Shown here piece by piece: positions 9,464-47,907 of a stretch of 47,984 nucleotides of DNA. A program made the position numbers and the translations under genes. The notes beneath the pieces were generated by a model. It was given only the letters and a program-made list of their open reading frames with translations, was not told where the DNA came from and did no database searches. The stretch is taken from NCBI GenBank assembly GCA_947589675.1, contig CANQCI010000008.1, positions 1 to 47,984 on the forward strand, in the 5' to 3' direction. The stretch's first letter is position 1; each line of letters starts with the position of its first letter. The stretch comes from an uncultured Bacilli bacterium. GTDB taxonomy: Bacteria > Bacillota_I > Bacilli_A > RF39 > UBA660.

Positions 9464-11551
9464 CTATCCTAATATTATCGGATTACTACTTGTTCCCTCA
9501 CCCCAGACATACATCACATTGGAGTTGAGATAGAAGGACGGGCGCGCGGCATAGCTAGCAGTAGTCGTCAAAGGCGCAGTCACACACCCAAACGTATTAG
9601 CACCGAAGGCGTGAGTAGGAGCACTTGTATTTGGCGTGATAAACCAAAAATCATCACCAATCCAAGTCCAGTTATCCCAGGCGGCTAACCGATAATCTTG
9701 CAAAGTTGATACATATCCGGGCAAGCTCCATCTATCTTTCGTAGCCCCATAGTAATAATCGGTAACATACATCAAACCAATTTTGGCTGAATGAGTTAAT
9801 GGGGTCTTGGAATCGCCAAGTTCATTTTCATAAGCGGTGCGTGCTCCTTGTTCATGACCTAAAGGATATGTCATGCCACCCACTTGCCATTCAGTCGTAG
9901 CAATCATGTTAGCCCAATCATTTAATTTTCCAAGATATGTTTCATTTAAATTATGCGTATTTAATTCACTATTGCTCCAAACATTTTGCCCATTTTTATC
10001 CCAAGTGTACCTTGGCCACTCATCATGATTGCCAAGATAGGTATTATATGGACCTCGAGAGCCAGAACTAGCAAAATCACCATCTTCACCGAGTAAATCT
10101 TTCCCCGCTTCATCGGCTTTCACTAATTTTATTTGATATTCATTTCCTATTTTAAAAGCTCCGATTATCCGATAGAGATTTTCGACATTTGAACAATCCC
10201 CACCAAAACAAACAAAGTTTTTAATGTTATTATCACTTATGTAACCAGCGGCAATAGCCTTGGTTAATGCTTGTTTTAATGATGTTAAATTTTCTATATT
10301 TGGATTATAACTTAATGTGTATTTAGGATTAGTTGCACAATAATCATTACTGTTTGTAGATAGAGTTCCATTACAATCTAATTTGATTATATCATTGATA
10401 GTACCATATTGAGCATCCTTGGCTCTTTGGGTTAATTGGTAGTCACCACCTGTAAAGCGATAGGATAAATCATTGGCATCTTGCTCAGTTATAGTTCCAT
10501 TATGATAATATAACTTAGTATCTTCGTACTTACTATTTTTATTATATAAGCCTATTACACATTCTGCTAAATTGCCTCCATTTGGACAAGCATCAGCCAA
10601 TGTCTTTTTCGGAGTTATACTTTCTTCAATTACTTTTACTATTTCTTCATCATTAAAGGATATCTTCGTACTTACTTCATATTTCTTACTTTCCGTTAAA
10701 TTATCAAATGTATAACTATAAACATTTGTATCTTCATTACTGGCTTCATGCCAATCTTTATCTTCATCAGCATTAATTTTAAATGACACATTATCAATCG
10801 TATCCTCATAATCAGATATTGTAGCTATTACTTTCATACTGTCATTAGTTATATTCGTTGTTTCAACTTTGACATTAGGTAAGGTTCCAGCTGTTATAAT
10901 GGCTTGAGCATTAAATGTTTTTCCGGTATTTACTTGTTGGTCATAATCATGATTGATTAATATTATTTTTATTTGCCATGTTTCATCTGCTTTACCATTA
11001 TTTTCATCATCACTTGGTTCAGCACTTATTTCTTCGGTTAATTTAATTGGAATTAAACCGGTGGCTGTTGTTATATCAAATCCTTTAAGAGGATTTTCTT
11101 CATCATCAACATCTGCAACTGATACATATTTTATTGATGTATCATCTAAAGTTTCTAAAGGCTTACCATCTGGATTAATTACTTGTAATATTAGTTCAGG
11201 AATACCTGCTTTGGTATAAACAAATGGATTATTTATTAAATTTAAGTAAACATTATAAGTTTCGGAAGCTGTATAATTACCATTGTTCGCTACCAAGTGG
11301 GCTGACACGGTAGTGTCTCCCTCTTGGTTTGGTTCTCCACTTTTAAAGTTATCACTATTGGCGTCAATAGTAATGGGATTTCCCTTGGTGAATGTCAGTG
11401 AGTCTGTTGTTCCTGCTTCAACATTAATATTAGCACTACCACCTGTTCCCTTTTGGGCGGCAAAGTAGGCATAAGTTGCTCCGATTGCCACCAAAAGAAA
11501 TGCAAGTAATGCTATGACAATTAACTTTTTATTTTTCTTAATTTTATCCAT
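9464..11551 (-). CDS. SipW-type signal surface protein, family member 2
   Basis: This is a 695-residue exported protein. After MDKIKKNKK comes a hydrophobic signal ending GATYAYFAAQKGTGGSA, then INVEAGTTDSLTF and a TasA/camelysin-like first domain, a fibronectin-like linker (about residues 240-330), and a C-terminal lectin-like domain (VCFGG, LYRIIGAF, IGLMYVTDYYYG, ARPSFYLN). This C-terminal pattern resembles DUF6273/C-type-lectin-like folds. I start at the ATG at 11551, with GAGGGTG upstream, because the longer frame runs through the promoter T tract. The 3' end (about 9500-9660) is richer in G and C than the rest. The gene with its promoter lies between two inverted MITE-like copies. It is probably a matrix or adhesion protein. 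Confidence 0.85.
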   Translation of the reverse strand: MDKIKKNKKLIVIALLAFLLVAIGATYAYFAAQKGTGGSANINVEAGTTDSLTFTKGNPITIDANSDNFKSGEPNQEGDTTVSAHLVANNGNYTASETYNVYLNLINNPFVYTKAGIPELILQVINPDGKPLETLDDTSIKYVSVADVDDEENPLKGFDITTATGLIPIKLTEEISAEPSDDENNGKADETWQIKIILINHDYDQQVNTGKTFNAQAIITAGTLPNVKVETTNITNDSMKVIATISDYEDTIDNVSFKINADEDKDWHEASNEDTNVYSYTFDNLTESKKYEVSTKISFNDEEIVKVIEESITPKKTLADACPNGGNLAECVIGLYNKNSKYEDTKLYYHNGTITEQDANDLSYRFTGGDYQLTQRAKDAQYGTINDIIKLDCNGTLSTNSNDYCATNPKYTLSYNPNIENLTSLKQALTKAIAAGYISDNNIKNFVCFGGDCSNVENLYRIIGAFKIGNEYQIKLVKADEAGKDLLGEDGDFASSGSRGPYNTYLGNHDEWPRYTWDKNGQNVWSNSELNTHNLNETYLGKLNDWANMIATTEWQVGGMTYPLGHEQGARTAYENELGDSKTPLTHSAKIGLMYVTDYYYGATKDRWSLPGYVSTLQDYRLAAWDNWTWIGDDFWFITPNTSAPTHAFGANTFGCVTAPLTTTASYAARPSFYLNSNVMYVWGEGTSSNPIILG

Positions 11552-11577
11552 TTTTTCATACACCCTCAATTTTACCC

Positions 11578-11605
11578 ATACTATCAAAAAAAAAAAAAAA
11601 GTCAA
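11578..11605 (-). promoter_or_regulatory. Promoter of family member 2 with T15 spacer
   Basis: TTGACT (11600-11605) and TAGTAT (11578-11583) on the minus strand are separated by 16 nt, nearly all of it a T15 homopolymer (11586-11600 on the other strand). The start codon at 11551 follows at a normal distance with a GAGGGTG ribosome-binding site. Slippage in the homopolymer would alter -35/-10 spacing. Confidence 0.7.
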
Positions 11606-11660
11606 GAGAACATTTGTTTGCATTTATTCAAAAAAAGATTTTTTTCTTTAATCAGTTCTT

Positions 11661-28582: not shown

Positions 28583-28652
28583 AAAAAATCCTCCTAATCT
28601 TGGATTTAATATATATCTTTGTAGTAAGAGAATATTTTACTTTTTAATTATA

Positions 28653-28738
28653 TATTTTACGAGTATCCAAACCCCGTAGTAGCATCCGCCGAAAAATTCG
28701 ATAACCACTATCCTCGTCAACTTAAAAGTTCAGGCGCT
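28653..28738 (-). ncRNA. glmS ribozyme-riboswitch
   Basis: In the glmS leader the minus strand reads AGCGCCTGAAC at the cleavage site (cut expected after the A at 28738). The conserved core blocks GTTGACGAGG, GGTTATCGA and TCGGCGGATGC follow, ending near CTCGTAAAATA. These match the glmS ribozyme, which cleaves the mRNA when glucosamine-6-phosphate binds. P1 is very short here (AACTTTTAAGTT). Boundaries are approximate. Confidence 0.93.
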
Positions 28739-28881
28739 CATTATAATTAACTTAAACTCCCCTCCTAAAGTTAATACTATAACTAATTAAATTATACAAA
28801 AAAAATAAATAAAAATCATTAACTTCCATATAAATTTATGTTAATATTTATACATATTAATTAAATAAAGAGGTCATAGTT

Positions 28882-33956: not shown

Positions 33957-35568
33957 GAATACATTATATAATAATGAAACACAAATTAAAAGTAGTTTTG
34001 ATAAATTTTTACAAAAATCTTAATTCTAATAGTAAATACAATTTTTATAACTTGAGTTGTATTTACTTTCAGAAATAGGATTGTATTTACTATTAGAATT
34101 ATGATAATTATAAAATAAAGAATGATAATATTTTACTATTTGCATTTACTTTGAGAATATATAAAATTAATAATTAAAATTCTTTGATTCTTTCTTATAA
34201 GAAAGAATGCCTAACCGGCGAGGTTATTCCTTAACCTTTCTCGGCTTCTTTGCTTACTTTCTTTTACGGAAAAGAAAGTAAGGCCTATTCGGCGAGGATT
34301 ATAATTTTCTCCCTTAAAAATAACTAATTTAAAATTGTATTTACTCTTAGAATTTATTAAAATAGTTAAAAAAATCGGCTTATAAATCTTGCCAATTTTT
34401 AATTGTATTTACTTTTAGACTTTATTTTCTTAATTTGTCAGTTGCATTTACTTTTAGAATTCACCAATTTTTACAAAAAATTCCTAATATGAGAAAAACT
34501 CAACTTAATTTTCTTCCATCATTAATGTATGGCATGATTGATGCTGAATCCTGTGCTTCTTCTGATATCGCCAAATGTTTAAATGAAGAAAAAAAATGGG
34601 CTCAGTATGAGTCTATTGTTAAGCGTATTAATCGCTTTTGGAATAATAAACATTTTAATGGTAAGGAATTTTTCAACAAAGCAATTAGTTCAGTTATTGA
34701 CCAATATAAACTTAAACATTCTGATAATAAAATACATATCTCCTTTGATCATATGTTTTCTCATGACAATTATACTGTTTTAATGTTTACTTTAAGAGTT
34801 GGTACTCAAGGTATTCCAATTTATTTTGAGTGTTTTAAAGGAAGTAACAATAATGATACTTTTGAATTTGAATCTATAAAAAAAGGCATTGATGCTGTCG
34901 ATGAATTATTTAAAGATAAAGGCTTCAAGCTTATTTTCTTAGCTGATAGATGGTTTGATTCTACCCAAATTTTTGATTATATTGATAAGTTAGGTCATAC
35001 TTATTGTATTAGATTAAAAGGTAATATTGTTGCTTATAAAGATAATAAAAAAATTATAGTAAAAAAACTTAAACATCGTAAATATCATGCTGTTGTTCAT
35101 AATGATGTTTATATTACTCATAAACGCTTTAAAACTAATATTGTTTACTCTAGTTCCATTGATACTTCTACCCCTTGGATTATTGCTACTAATGATGATG
35201 TTTTACATGCTGTTCAAAATTATAGCCATAGATTTGGTTCCATTGAATCTGTTTTTAAAAATCAAAAATCCAATGGATTTAATCTAAATAAAATCTCTAA
35301 TATGAGCCTTCGTACTTTCACTAACATGTATTCTGTTTTATGTATATGTGTGGTTTATCTTACTATTCTTGGCACTGATTTTTCTAAAAATTCTAAATGC
35401 TATAAAGATGTTTGTATTAATACTCATAAAAACTACAATATCAATGGGAAAAAAGTAAAAAGAAGAATTATGTCTTTATTTAATACTGGTCTTACTCTAT
35501 TTAAAATCGCTCATAATTCTTTAAAATATATTCGCTTACCGTTTAGTTTTAAGCTGTACGACATTTAA
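33955..35568 (+). pseudogene. IS4-family DDE transposase, split by an insertion
   Basis: The N-terminal 22 codons (33955-34020, MNTLYNNETQI ... FLQKS, stop) and the main part (from about 34466 to 35568) join cleanly in frame as ...DKFLQKIPNMRKTQ when the 448 bp insert and one copy of a 14-bp duplication are removed. The main part has the IS4 triad: ISFDHM (first Asp), FLADRWFDS (second Asp) and YSHRFGSIESVFKNQKS (Y-x2-R-x3-E-x6-K). A TTG at 34435, inside the insert, opens a 377-codon frame, so a shortened, possibly still active, protein could be made. Residual activity is uncertain. Confidence 0.85.
34018..34465 (+). mobile_element. Iteron-rich MITE inserted in the transposase gene
   Basis: This 448 bp non-coding insert is flanked by 14-bp direct copies of AATTTTTACAAAAA (34004-34017 and 34466-34479). 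Its ends carry inverted AATTCTAATAGTAAATACAA (34022-34041) and TTGCATTTACTTTTAGAATT (34442-34461). The ~20-bp motif recurs in direct orientation at 34057, 34081, 34140, 34335 and 34403. Between lie a perfect 22-bp palindrome (34187-34208), a hairpin with 12-bp stem (34254-34281) and two copies of GCCTANNCGGCGAGG (34209, 34283). Repeated end motifs suggest multiple transposase-binding sites, as in IS21- or Tn7-like elements. It is likely mobilised in trans. Confidence 0.8.
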
Positions 35569-35590
35569 GGTTACCAAGAATTTATAAAAG

Positions 35591-35661
35591 AACAGGCAAC
35601 ACTTTTTTGCGTGGAAAAATTTGCCTGTTTTCATGTTACTGTAAAAATTTTTATTTTTGTA
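35591..35661 (+). repeat. Stem-loop repeat at the IS right end
   Basis: ACAGGCAA and TTTGCCTGT arms form a terminator-like hairpin downstream of the transposase, followed by CTGTAAAAATTTTTATTTT. A close copy lies at 47838-47907, and a weaker relative at 33730-33775. Confidence 0.75.
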
Positions 35662-35765
35662 TTCCCTTAAGTCACATTTTGATTGACATTGGGACGAACT
35701 TTTTAGCCTAAAATTTGCCGTATTTTCTAGGCTAAATCAAAACTGTCCGTAGGTAAGGTAAACCC

Positions 35766-37913
35766 TTATACGACAATACGGAATGGATGGTCAACATCAC
35801 CTAGTGAATCATCAACTTTAATTTTTACATCTGTGTTAAGATAAAAGGACGGGCGAATCCCGATCGCAATGTCGTTGACGCCGTAGTAGTTAACCACATA
35901 CCCGTCGTTGTAGACAAGGAACGCATAGTTGGAATCGCTGGAGTTGCGCGATATTGTCCATTCATAAACATTATTATATAACCAGTTATTTGCTCGGTTA
36001 CTATTACCATTATTATCATAATTATCTAAAGTTGATATCCAATTTTTTTGTTCACTGGCAAATCCATAGTCCGAAGTATACATCAAACCGATTTGAGCCG
36101 ATACTGTTGGATTTGAAGCTATCTCGGCATCATACATTACTTTTGGTGTTACTTGATGTGAGTTATGTCCTCCGACATGCCACGTTGTTGTTGCTATTTT
36201 ATTTGTCCACGTTGTACCTAGAAAATTTAAGTAACCACTCTCTCCATTATTTAACGCTTGATATAATGTGCTACTTTCCCATGTATTATCAGCTGTTTTA
36301 TTCCAGTAAAACCCATCACTTGGAGCTACTTTTACTCTTTTCAAAGTATCGTAACTTCCTGTACTTGGCTTACCATCACTATCTATTCCTAATTCAGCAC
36401 TGGTTATGTATTCCGACTTGATTAATTTTATTTGGTTGCCAAATACACCAATTATTCGATATAAATTAGTATCAGGACAAGTATCTCCACCATTGTTATA
36501 ATCTTCACTACCATTTCCAAAACAAACAAAGTTATATGGATTATTTCCTGAATAACGATAACTATTATCACCAGCACTATTTTCTAAATCAGTTGTATGT
36601 TGTAATAAAGCTTCTGTTCCTTCTCCTACTTTTGTACCAACTTTACTTATAACAAAATCGGTTAAATTTTGCTCTTTTGGTAATTCGCTTGTTTTCACTT
36701 CTATTGTTTTAATATTCGAAAATACTCCCTCAGCATTTTTAGCTTGAATAATTATAGTATAAGTAGTACTATCCTTTAACCCTGTTATTGTATTTGTTGT
36801 ATTATTAAACTCTGTCCATTCTCCTCCTACAATTTTAGCTCGATATTCTAATGTATCATCTTGATAAGTTAAGGTTATTTTAGATGCAGTTGCACTTGTT
36901 GTTACCTCACCAACTTCTGGTAATACTCCATCCTTAGCTGTAACTACTGTTTCATAAATATTACTTTTATATCCTTGTTCATCGGTAGTATAAGTATATA
37001 TTTTATAATTTTGATTTTCTTCTATTTCTTCACTAAAAGTATGCGTGTTACTTGTTTCTTCTATATATTCTTTTCCTAAAGCATTAGCTATACTTGATAA
37101 CTTTATAGTTTCAGGACTTTCGCTTGTTTTTTCAATGGCAAAATAATAATTAGCTATTTTACTTGTTCCAGTTGTTATATCAGCAACAGCTTCAATACTA
37201 TTTGTTGTAGCTGTAGTTTTAAGAGTATTTACTTCACTTAATTTAAAATCTTCATCAGTTGTAATATAAATACTTCCTTCAAAAGTTTTGCCAGTATTAT
37301 TATTTTGGTCTTGGTCTAAATTAACTAATGTGGCTTCCACTTGCCATGTTTGTTCCGTACCCTCAGCTTCATTAGCATCTATTTCATAATCACTAACTAT
37401 TTTATAAACTTGATTACTACTTGTTGTTATATCATATCCCTTATAAGAAGCATTTTCTTTATCAGTTACATCTTCATAATATTTTAATCCTTCAACTGTT
37501 TCCGTATATTCTTCACTATTAGGATTAGTTATTTTTAAAAGTAATTCAGGTGAACTATTATCCTTGGTATAAACTAAATCATTATTTTCTACTACTAAAA
37601 AGATATTATATGTTTCATGAGCACTATTTGTATTATTGTTAGGAATTAATTTAGCTTTAACTGAGGCTGACTGGGTTATACTTTGATTACTTTTGCCAAA
37701 ATTATCTTGATTAGCAACAATAGTGATATCTCCCTCTTCATTATTAAAGGTAAGTGAGTCCGTTGTTCCAGCTCCGACTTCAATGTTAGCACTACCTCCA
37801 GCTCCCCTTTGGGCAGCAAAGTAAGCATAAGTCGCTCCAATCACTGTTATGAGGAGTAATAATAAAGCTATAATTGCTACCTTTTTATTTTTTATATTAT
37901 CACTTTTTTTCAT
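35766..37913 (-). CDS. SipW-type signal surface protein, family member 3, with atypical 3' segment
   Basis: This is a 715-residue exported protein. The signal ends GATYAYFAAQRGAGGSA, followed by IEVGAGTTDSLTF, a TasA-like domain, two fibronectin-like modules (about residues 225-410) and a C-terminal lectin-like domain (NFVCFGNGS, LYRIIGVFGNQIKLIKSEY, IGLMYTSDYG, NVYEWTISR, IGIRPSFYLN). The last ~35 codons before RPSFYLN (about 35846-35950) end in G or C in 28 of 35 cases, most being NNC, while the rest of the gene is AT-rich. This points to a variable cassette of different origin. The promoter carries a (TA)9 tract. Role: probably adhesion or biofilm matrix. Confidence 0.87.
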   Translation of the reverse strand: MKKSDNIKNKKVAIIALLLLLITVIGATYAYFAAQRGAGGSANIEVGAGTTDSLTFNNEEGDITIVANQDNFGKSNQSITQSASVKAKLIPNNNTNSAHETYNIFLVVENNDLVYTKDNSSPELLLKITNPNSEEYTETVEGLKYYEDVTDKENASYKGYDITTSSNQVYKIVSDYEIDANEAEGTEQTWQVEATLVNLDQDQNNNTGKTFEGSIYITTDEDFKLSEVNTLKTTATTNSIEAVADITTGTSKIANYYFAIEKTSESPETIKLSSIANALGKEYIEETSNTHTFSEEIEENQNYKIYTYTTDEQGYKSNIYETVVTAKDGVLPEVGEVTTSATASKITLTYQDDTLEYRAKIVGGEWTEFNNTTNTITGLKDSTTYTIIIQAKNAEGVFSNIKTIEVKTSELPKEQNLTDFVISKVGTKVGEGTEALLQHTTDLENSAGDNSYRYSGNNPYNFVCFGNGSEDYNNGGDTCPDTNLYRIIGVFGNQIKLIKSEYITSAELGIDSDGKPSTGSYDTLKRVKVAPSDGFYWNKTADNTWESSTLYQALNNGESGYLNFLGTTWTNKIATTTWHVGGHNSHQVTPKVMYDAEIASNPTVSAQIGLMYTSDYGFASEQKNWISTLDNYDNNGNSNRANNWLYNNVYEWTISRNSSDSNYAFLVYNDGYVVNYYGVNDIAIGIRPSFYLNTDVKIKVDDSLGDVDHPFRIVV
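35846..35950 (-). other. GC-rich, NNC-codon tract: candidate variable repeat
   Basis: Reading minus, the sequence changes abruptly after TGG ACA ATA to codons such as CGC, AAC, TCC, AGC, TTC, GTC, TAC, GAC and GGC, and returns to normal use after CGC CCG TCC. AAC-derived NNC codons next to a conserved GC-rich end are the signature of diversity-generating retroelement variable repeats. No template repeat or reverse transcriptase is in this window. Confidence 0.45.
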
Positions 37914-40070: not shown

Positions 40071-40099
40071 ATTATATAAAACTTTCTTTTTTAAATCAA
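40071..40099 (-). promoter_or_regulatory. Promoter of tyrS
   Basis: TTGATT (40094-40099) and TATAAT (40071-40076) on the minus strand with a 17-nt spacer set the leader start near 40065. Confidence 0.78.
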
Positions 40100-42036
40100 G
40101 CTATTTTAAATGGTTTTAACACACTTCCATCAGTTCCTGTGGTATTTAATTGTACGGTATCATTTAAATAAAATACGGGACGAACCCCAAGAGTATACAT
40201 CAAATGCCCAGTATTAATGGGGAATATACTACCACTGTAATTAATAGAATAAGCATGAACTGTCCCTGCTCCATCAGTATTAGTATATGGAGTTATTGTC
40301 CATTCATAAACAGCATTATATAGCCAATTATTTTCCCAGTTAGAACAACCAGTATTATTATATTCAGAAAGTTTTTTTGACCAAATTTCTGGAATGGTTG
40401 CATAAGCATAATCACTTACATACATAAGCCCCACATTAGCTGTAACTGTTTTAGTCGTTAAACTTTCGGCATCATACATGGCTTTGGGCGTTATTTCATA
40501 TTCAGTATGTCCTCCAACATTCCAATTGACATTGGCAATTTTACTTTGCCAATCAGCACCTAGTTTACTCCAGTAACCATCATCACCATTTAACTTTTTA
40601 TATAGTTCACTTTCTTCCCAATTATTACTATTAGTATTTATAACTCCTGACCAAGCAAAGCCATTTAAATTAAGTACATCCCCCTTTACTCTTTTTAACC
40701 CCTCATTTTCTTTTCTAGAATCAGGTTTACCTTGATCAGCTATTCCTAATTCATCACCCGTAAGATATTCGGATTTTATTAATTTAACTTGATTACCAAA
40801 TAAACCAATTATCCGATATAAATTGGTATCAGGACAAGTGGCATCTTTACCCTGATTATAGTTTTCACTACCTTCACCAAAACAAACAAAATTATTAGGA
40901 TTACTTCCCGCATAACGATAACTTCCATCTTGAGCACTATTATCAAGTTCTGCTGTATGATGATATAAATTAGTTTTGGTAGATGCATAATTATTTAATT
41001 TTTCAAGACAAGTATTAAGATTTCCGCCTGTTTCACAAACATCAGCTAAAGTATAACTATCACTTATTTTGACATTAAAGGAATTTAGTAATTCAGGATT
41101 ATTTTCATAAGTAACTTTGGTTTCAATTTCATACTTTTTATCAGGTTCTAAACTTTCAAAAGTATAACTATAAACTGGACTGGTTTCTAAATCTAAACCT
41201 TGAATAGGTTCTAACGCTCCTTGATGCCATTCAGCATCCCCTTCGATTTGAAAAGCAACACTATTAATATTACCTACATAATCATTTATGGTTGCCATGA
41301 CTTTTAAGCCAGTATCCCCAACTTCATTGGTTGTTAAATCAACATCAGGGATAGTAGTATGACTAACTATTGCTTGAGCTTTAAAAGTCTTCCCCGTATT
41401 TACTTGTTGATCTTGATCTAAATTAACTAAAATAACTTTAATTTTCCATGTATGATCAGTTTTACCATTTTTTTCTGGTTCCATTTCATTAGGATTAGCA
41501 CTAATCGGATGCATCTTTTTTATAGCCACTAAACCACTTGTCGTAGTAATATCAAAACCTTTAATTTGGGAACCATCTTCTTCCGTACTTTCAATAGTAA
41601 CGGGGGTTAAACCATCGATACTTTCTACTTCATTGCCATCAGGATCAATTACTTGTAAAACTAATTCGGGTGTGCCAGAACTCGTATAAACAAAAGGATT
41701 TTTTTCAATATTTAAATAAACATAATATTGTTCAGTTGCCGTATTATTAGTATTATTAGCCACCAAATGAGCTCTTACTTCGGTTTCGCCATCTCTATTA
41801 CCTTTGCCCTTGGCAAAGTTATCGCTGTTAGCATCAATGGTTATGGCATCACCATTATCAAAGGTAAGAGAATCCGTGGTACCCGCTTCCACATTAATTT
41901 CCGCACTTCCCCCACTACCTCTTTGAGCCGTGAAATAAGCATAAGTCGCACTTATAACGGTTATTAGTAATAGTAACAAAACAATAATACTAGTTTTTTG
42001 ATTTTTAGTCATTTTCTTTTCTTTATTCTCTTTCAT
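40096..42036 (-). CDS. SipW-type signal surface protein, family member 4
   Basis: This 646-residue exported protein has a signal ending SATYAYFTAQRGSGGSA, then INVEAGTTDSLTF, a TasA-like domain, one fibronectin-like region and the C-terminal lectin-like domain (NFVCFGEGS, LYRIIGLFGNQVKLIKSEYL, VGLMYVSDYAYA, AVYEWTITP, GVRPVFYLN). It is closest in layout to members 2 and 3, but its 3' end keeps the normal AT-rich codon use. AGGATAAATAA precedes the ATG. Its promoter has palindromes instead of simple repeats. Likely a cell-surface or matrix component. Confidence 0.87.
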   Translation of the reverse strand: MKENKEKKMTKNQKTSIIVLLLLLITVISATYAYFTAQRGSGGSAEINVEAGTTDSLTFDNGDAITIDANSDNFAKGKGNRDGETEVRAHLVANNTNNTATEQYYVYLNIEKNPFVYTSSGTPELVLQVIDPDGNEVESIDGLTPVTIESTEEDGSQIKGFDITTTSGLVAIKKMHPISANPNEMEPEKNGKTDHTWKIKVILVNLDQDQQVNTGKTFKAQAIVSHTTIPDVDLTTNEVGDTGLKVMATINDYVGNINSVAFQIEGDAEWHQGALEPIQGLDLETSPVYSYTFESLEPDKKYEIETKVTYENNPELLNSFNVKISDSYTLADVCETGGNLNTCLEKLNNYASTKTNLYHHTAELDNSAQDGSYRYAGSNPNNFVCFGEGSENYNQGKDATCPDTNLYRIIGLFGNQVKLIKSEYLTGDELGIADQGKPDSRKENEGLKRVKGDVLNLNGFAWSGVINTNSNNWEESELYKKLNGDDGYWSKLGADWQSKIANVNWNVGGHTEYEITPKAMYDAESLTTKTVTANVGLMYVSDYAYATIPEIWSKKLSEYNNTGCSNWENNWLYNAVYEWTITPYTNTDGAGTVHAYSINYSGSIFPINTGHLMYTLGVRPVFYLNDTVQLNTTGTDGSVLKPFKIA

Positions 42037-43248: not shown

Positions 43249-43603
43249 TAAATAATTTCTCATAAGCCATGTTCTGTCCTTAACAAGTAAGGGGCAAATA
43301 TTTATCTTCGCAAAATTGCGACCTAAGTCTAGTTTTTATTCCTATCCTTAAGCTCCCCGACCATAATTTGGGTTTCTCGCTCGTGGGGTTTACCACGTTC
43401 CACTATTTAGGTTTCCCTAAATACTCGTCTCTTTGGCACTTTTATATCTACTAAAACCCTTTAAGGTTTCCTCGAAGCCGTTAGTTAAAACTACCCTAAG
43501 TTATTTTTTCCTTAGGCACGAACACTACTATCAATTGCAGATAGTGCGAGCATGGACTTTCCTCTACATATTAATTTATGCAGCATTTGCCTCGAAATTA
43601 TTC
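43249..43603 (-). ncRNA. rnpB: RNase P RNA, type B
   Basis: The catalytic RNA that matures tRNA 5' ends. The minus strand has GAGGAAAGTCCATGCTCGC, GTGTTCGTGCCTA, AAAGTGCCA, GTGGTAAACCCC, GAGCGAGAAACCCAAAT and a 3' GAACATGGCTTAT. P1 is formed by AATAATTTC and GAAATTATT. It is about 355 nt, somewhat shorter than the Bacillus RNA (~400). The 5' end overlaps the last codons of gpsB, a gene neighbour conserved in Bacillus. Confidence 0.95.
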
Positions 43604-47749: not shown

Positions 47750-47837
47750 TTATGTTAAAAGAAGAATATCTCCCTTCTTGCCTAACATTATTATATACAA
47801 CTTATTAATAAAGATTCAATATTATAATTTATATTAA

Positions 47838-47907
47838 AACAGGCAACACTTTTTTGCGTGGAAAAATTTGCCTGTTTTAAGTTTCCGTAAAAATTTTTAT
47901 TTTCGTA
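47838..47907 (+). repeat. Solo copy of the IS right-end stem-loop
   Basis: Nearly identical to 35591-35661 (AACAGGCAACACTTTTTTGC and on), differing mainly in CATGTTACT versus AAGTTTCC. No transposase precedes it, so it is a remnant or a separately spread hairpin. Confidence 0.75.

Follow-up and report, generated by a model that had tools for sequence, protein, structure and literature searches.

Two diversity-generating retroelements probably rewrite dispersed lectin-like surface-protein genes in trans in an uncultured genus of gut Bacilli

Two genes for predicted surface proteins in the stretch of DNA analyzed here (“the window,” 47,984 nt) carry variable repeats that have very probably been rewritten in trans by diversity-generating retroelements (DGRs) encoded elsewhere in the genome. 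The genus would thereby keep a set of variable surface lectins encoded at scattered loci. The window (contig C8) belongs to a draft genome of 1.46 Mb in 60 contigs (2.8% estimated contamination) from an uncultured gut Bacilli bacterium. The system is well supported as a cellular multi-target DGR of a known kind, with precedents in Treponema denticola, Trichodesmium and Thiohalocapsa; its setting here is an uncultured genus with many scattered targets.

The first variable repeat (VR1) stands out by its codon composition. In the gene at 35766..37913 (minus strand), which encodes 715 amino acids, 28 of the 36 codons at positions 35846-35950 end in G or C (21 of them in C), compared with 98 of 679 in the remaining gene (Fisher p about 5e-16). 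The richest other 35-codon stretch of this gene has only 11 G/C-ending codons. When 35-codon tracts from all ORFs in the window were ranked by G/C at the third codon position, this tract came first, and the second (21/35, at about 9616) is also a DGR repeat (VR2, see below). Its edges are sharp: aligned to its template, VR1 proper spans 35849..35950 on the minus strand (34 codons), ends in CGCCCGT, and has the reading frame SRNSSDSNYAFLVYNDGYVVNYYGVNDIAIGIRPSFYLN. Thus, a remote variable repeat is detectable from the jump in codon composition alone. The preliminary description, made from the window by itself, had noted the sharp switch to G/C-ending, mostly NNC codons near the 3′ end of the gene, and had proposed a DGR variable repeat served by a reverse transcriptase (RT) and template outside the window. 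These points agree with what we found. VR1 is close to the end of the C-terminal domain (about 84 bp separate the end of the repeat from the last base of the stop codon), neither RT nor template occurs on this contig, and the donor is on contig C37.

The check proposed in that description, a genome search for a near-copy beside RT and Avd genes, recovered the copy on C37, where genes for an RT, Avd, an MSL protein and another version of the target lie next to it. The template repeat (TR1) is 99 bp long (C37:15239-15337), and no second TR1-like template was found across the genome. These neighbors in the cassette are the truncated paralogous target (C37:15561-16485), a 124 aa MutS_I (MSL-type) protein above the Pfam cut-off (C37:14660-15034), an Avd (C37:14323-14688; NF033474 at 4e-9, under the curated cut-off, and PHROG “Avd protein of DGR” at 2.5e-9), a 358 aa RT with YMDD and IGNMTSQ motifs (C37:13257-14333), joined by a 97 aa ORF (C37:13019-13312). 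A search of solved structures ranked 8ub7 first for this RT (E 9.5e-26), with group II maturases scoring lower. We take 8ub7 to be the RT of the BPP-1 DGR and read IGNMTSQ as a DGR-type motif. By its motifs and structure match, the C37 enzyme is a predicted DGR-type RT. The neighboring gene, named from its sequence, is presumably pyruvate phosphate dikinase-like, so the cassette is probably chromosomal rather than phage-borne. The MSL domain corresponds to PF01624 (PMC10053308). Four RVT_1 matches were detected in the genome. That on contig C5 (L001) was rejected as a DGR RT, being a group II intron RT with the motif QGGNLSP, and that on C9 (L004) was rejected as a decayed fragment with four stops.

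Comparison of VR1 with TR1 revealed the signature of adenine mutagenesis. In the repeat body (last 20 bp excluded), mismatches occur at 13 of 33 template A positions and at 0 of 46 other positions (p 2e-6), and of the 20 mismatches between TR1 and the VR of the cassette's own target, 19 are at template A. As a control, the window gene and the cassette target were compared upstream of their repeats, and this homologous DNA showed no A bias (45/278 at A, 90/443 at others). The surplus of NNC codons follows from the template, since TR1 is a series of AAC/AAT codons set between others that end in G or C, and randomizing the adenines at codon positions 1 and 2 turns AAC into NNC. Judged by sequence, the genome holds a complete DGR cassette whose template equals VR1 at every non-A body position, and the tract at 35849-35950 is a DGR variable repeat; the lectin-like domain that carries it forms the C-terminus of a protein predicted to be secreted or surface-located. 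The expectation that the copy would differ only at A held for the aligned bases of the repeat body. Over the whole repeat, perfect non-A identity between VR1 and its template was not found: there is one in-frame 3-nt insertion (codon GTT), and three non-A changes fall within the 3′ 20 bp.

The main alternative raised initially was a horizontally acquired cassette; here we consider any G/C-rich cassette, acquired horizontally or by recombination, with no link to a retroelement. The sharp change of codon usage at the tract edges would fit such an event, but an AAC-rich template directly yields the G/C richness at third positions, a dozen paralogs contain this tract too, with A-biased differences, and the match to a template with A-restricted differences already refutes the idea. 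It is also superfluous, because the entire domain family, like the RT, is native to the genus. We regard it as extremely improbable. The target gene and its VR might instead be a plain duplicate of the cassette copy that was never rewritten in trans afterwards. Every target is indeed a paralog with an alignable domain, and a transposase adjoins the window target gene. However, window gene and cassette target have diverged by 19% in their flanks, whereas the non-A body positions of VR1 are 0% divergent from TR1, an outcome with a probability of about 6e-5 at the flank rate. Duplication alone is thus very unlikely, and the intact non-A body indicates that VR1 was recopied from a TR after the genes split.

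Whether TR1 still acts on VR1 is a separate matter. From the insertion and the 3′-end differences, it seems that VR1 was last rewritten from a template close but not identical to today's TR1 (its ancestor or a sister TR); the version used may have differed from the present TR1 in having an additional AAY codon and a 3′ end like GCGATCGGGATTCGCCCGT. It is possible, though not the reading we favor, that VR1 is a fossil made by a template since lost or changed, and that TR1 on C37 no longer rewrites the tract. This overlaps with trans diversification as the explanation of VR1 and bears on present activity only. The insertion and the three 3′ non-A differences are incompatible with full-length copying from the present TR1, other remote repeats are off the TR1 length by −3, +3, +6 and +12 nt (whole codons), and in T. 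denticola a remote target is closer to the template of another strain type than to its own (PMC4891356). On the other hand, 0/46 non-A body changes despite 19% flank divergence implies a fairly recent copy, and current activity would be compatible with the mismatches if conversion tracts are partial and the 3′ IMH is distinct.

Rewriting in trans is more directly apparent for VR2, a cleaner variable repeat at 9539..9623 (minus strand) that the preliminary description had overlooked. It lies in a second target gene (9464..11623, minus strand; 719 aa) with the same architecture as the gene at 35766-37913. The corresponding template, TR2, is on contig C55 (about 2730-2814), with a target, VR, MSL, Avd and the start of an RT alongside. 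It first surfaced as a weak match, and was recognized by its position beside the MSL, Avd and RT start. DGR2 on C55 runs to the contig edge within the RT start, and a fitting RT C-terminal part is at the end of C19; we infer that the two parts are one gene. VR2 is changed at 14 of 25 template A positions and at 0 of 60 non-A positions. This perfect non-A match identifies it as a trans target by the criterion used for Thiohalocapsa (PMC10907252), and it counts against loss of the template as a general explanation for the repeats of this window. It also argues against simple duplication: the 60 non-A positions are identical, whereas the flanks of the gene at 9464-11623 are 6% divergent locally (p 0.024) and 15% divergent over 1.2 kb (p 5e-5), and the two copies disagree at 17 of the 25 A sites.

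The 715 aa protein encoded at 35766..37913 has a SipW-like N-terminus, a middle region with weak similarity to fibronectin-III (fn3), and a C-terminal DUF6273-like domain (35769..36680, minus strand). The hydrophobic start includes a predicted export/anchor segment, VAIIALLLLLITVIGATYAYFAAQRG (37794..37913, minus strand), that resembles SipW-dependent signal peptides, and paralogs match TIGR04088 slightly under its cut-off. DUF6273 was matched by 15 of 47 aligned relatives (best 1e-8), with no match for the window member itself. DUF6273 is a C-type-lectin domain and a DGR target in gut phages (PMC10743442, PMC11792537), and its lectin fold has been described (PMC10743442). Both profile and fold searches pointed weakly to the N-terminal domain of the IgA peptidase 9qa6, which was the sole match of the fold search (Foldseek E 0.29, VIA Z 5.5); the AlphaFold model of the domain, built from four sequences, has low confidence (pLDDT 49.5). 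Export, surface location and the lectin fold are predictions for this protein. A search of viral contigs with the domain alignment detected zero relatives of the C-terminal domain, and a search of viral contigs for the RT returned nothing closer than 31%-identical RTs. A gene at 3-1784 of the window (minus strand), truncated by the contig end, has the same SipW-like start along with repeated modules.

The C-terminal domain is encoded at about 30 loci in the genome, and a query with the VR1 tract DNA retrieved about a dozen further genomic copies. At about a dozen of these loci the VR resembles TR1 and shows A bias; at several others it resembles TR2. In seven repeats (TR1 and TR2 combined) there is at most one non-A body change, with p-values uncorrected for multiple tests. 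The remaining loci lack a VR. Among them is the paralog at 40096..42036 (minus strand), whose C-terminal domain is 52% identical; it was rejected as a target because it has no match to the TR of either DGR. Across the genus the domain was found in 29 of 30 genomes. The RT is present in 19 of 39 sampled genomes, all 19 within this genus (24 sampled), and was absent from the genomes sampled in 14 further genera. A Bacilli MAG labeled Lapin-027, presumably from rabbit gut, carries a relative. For 14 local TR/VR pairs from the relatives and the present genome, mismatches affect 218 of 417 A and 6 of 750 non-A positions, a ratio skewed upward because the pairs were seeded on A-biased windows. DGR RTs with in-frame stops occur in some relatives (G004, G005, G013, G018 and G019), and thus the cassettes are also undergoing loss in the genus.

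G/C-rich stem-loops are located 9-11 nt past the stop codon in both cassette targets, whereas the window targets have only A/T-rich, terminator-like stems. One of these is an A/T-rich inverted repeat with a 12-bp stem (35702..35736, minus strand), 29 bp past the target stop codon; it is terminator-like, or could be a retrohoming stem-loop. We tentatively suggest, with somewhat less than even confidence, that this small-genome gut Bacilli genus maintains a hypermutable surface repertoire in which at least two DGRs act in trans on a dozen or more exported lectins encoded at scattered loci. Rewriting of the remote targets would proceed without a G/C-rich stem-loop, and the off-length repeats would record former templates.

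Behind the TR, 140 nt are conserved across 12 cassettes and form three helices. In this spacer RNA 97% of cells are paired and 14 pairs have two-sided changes, values that 0 of 500 shuffles reach and that a register shift abolishes. Such strong covariation speaks for functional cassettes maintained by selection. A covarying spacer RNA locus is at L035:6116-6237 (minus strand; alignment A3). The DGR1 spacer matched Rfam RT-14 over its full length at 35.4 bits, under the gathering score of 48.1. No RT-14 match was found for the DGR2 spacer, and a genus-wide search gave zero matches over the cut-off. Sub-threshold matches occur at or near DGR cassettes in three genomes (G003, G012 and G014), and control genomes also give sub-cut-off matches. 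RT-14 may be a DGR template-RNA element.

In the proposed mechanism, the TR RNA with its structured 3′ spacer would be copied by an RT–Avd complex with errors at adenines, and the cDNA would take the place of the 3′ repeat of the VR1 gene in trans. Randomization of AAC-type codons would vary the residues that a C-type-lectin scaffold presents for binding, probably on the surface of the cell. DGR2 (C55/C19) would act likewise on the gene at 9464-11623, and jointly the two DGRs would sustain the dispersed variable surface lectins of this genus of gut Bacilli.

Several known systems come close to this one. T. denticola has one TR and RT serving up to seven dispersed target genes, and shares with the present system surface-protein targets (predicted here), VR differences mostly at template A, and a remote VR that fits another template better (PMC4891356). 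Unlike that spirochaete, which uses an HRDC accessory protein, the cassettes here have Avd and MSL, and the targets are DUF6273-like. Trichodesmium erythraeum and other cyanobacteria, with about 18 TR/VR loci, similarly have two DGRs per genome, remote lectin targets, and transposases near the remote targets (PMC7517822, PMC8867640); they belong to another phylum and their targets are mainly cytosolic or regulatory, whereas those reported here are predicted to be exported. In Thiohalocapsa PB-PSB1, remote targets that equal the template of another locus at all non-A sites were read as trans action, as for VR2, but those targets are proposed conflict-system sensors and diversification there is supported by reads (PMC10907252). 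Adenine mutagenesis, TR, VR, RT, Avd and a structured spacer RNA behind the TR are shared with the DGR of Bordetella phage BPP-1 (PMC3240598, PMC12875486), which differs in acting in cis on a phage tail target with an IMH and a G/C-rich hairpin close behind the VR, as opposed to the chromosomal, trans targets described here. Gut-phage DGR targets likewise carry the VR on a DUF6273 C-type-lectin domain (DUF6273-related here) (PMC10743442, PMC11792537), but they are phage proteins, in contrast to the domain of the window, which had no relatives on viral contigs.

In a large metagenome survey of DGRs, remote targets were invisible owing to short contigs (PMC8144416), and such repertoires are accordingly undercounted. 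In the present case two cassettes and many targets, predicted to be exported, are connected within one genome of uncultured gut Bacilli. With VR1 and VR2, diversification of surface proteins in trans by presumed commensals becomes a specific case that sequencing reads can test.

The surroundings of the window targets include features that could relate to their dispersal. The transposase that adjoins the VR1 gene is of the DDE type (PF01609; 34435..35568, plus strand), is present as a single copy in the genome, and is a possible agent of target dispersal. Between it and the target gene, a repeat (35569-35765) recurs at 47826-47907, at the far end of the window, and 3′ of the targets on C43 and C34; it is possibly a small mobile repeat spreading along with the targets. 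Just upstream of the transposase (34000-34480) are several copies of a TTGTATTTACTTTTAGA-like motif in both orientations, and similar sequence is also found behind the C23 target gene. Elsewhere in the window, an RNase P class B RNA (43258-43598) and a glmS ribozyme (28599-28749) were detected above the Rfam cut-off.
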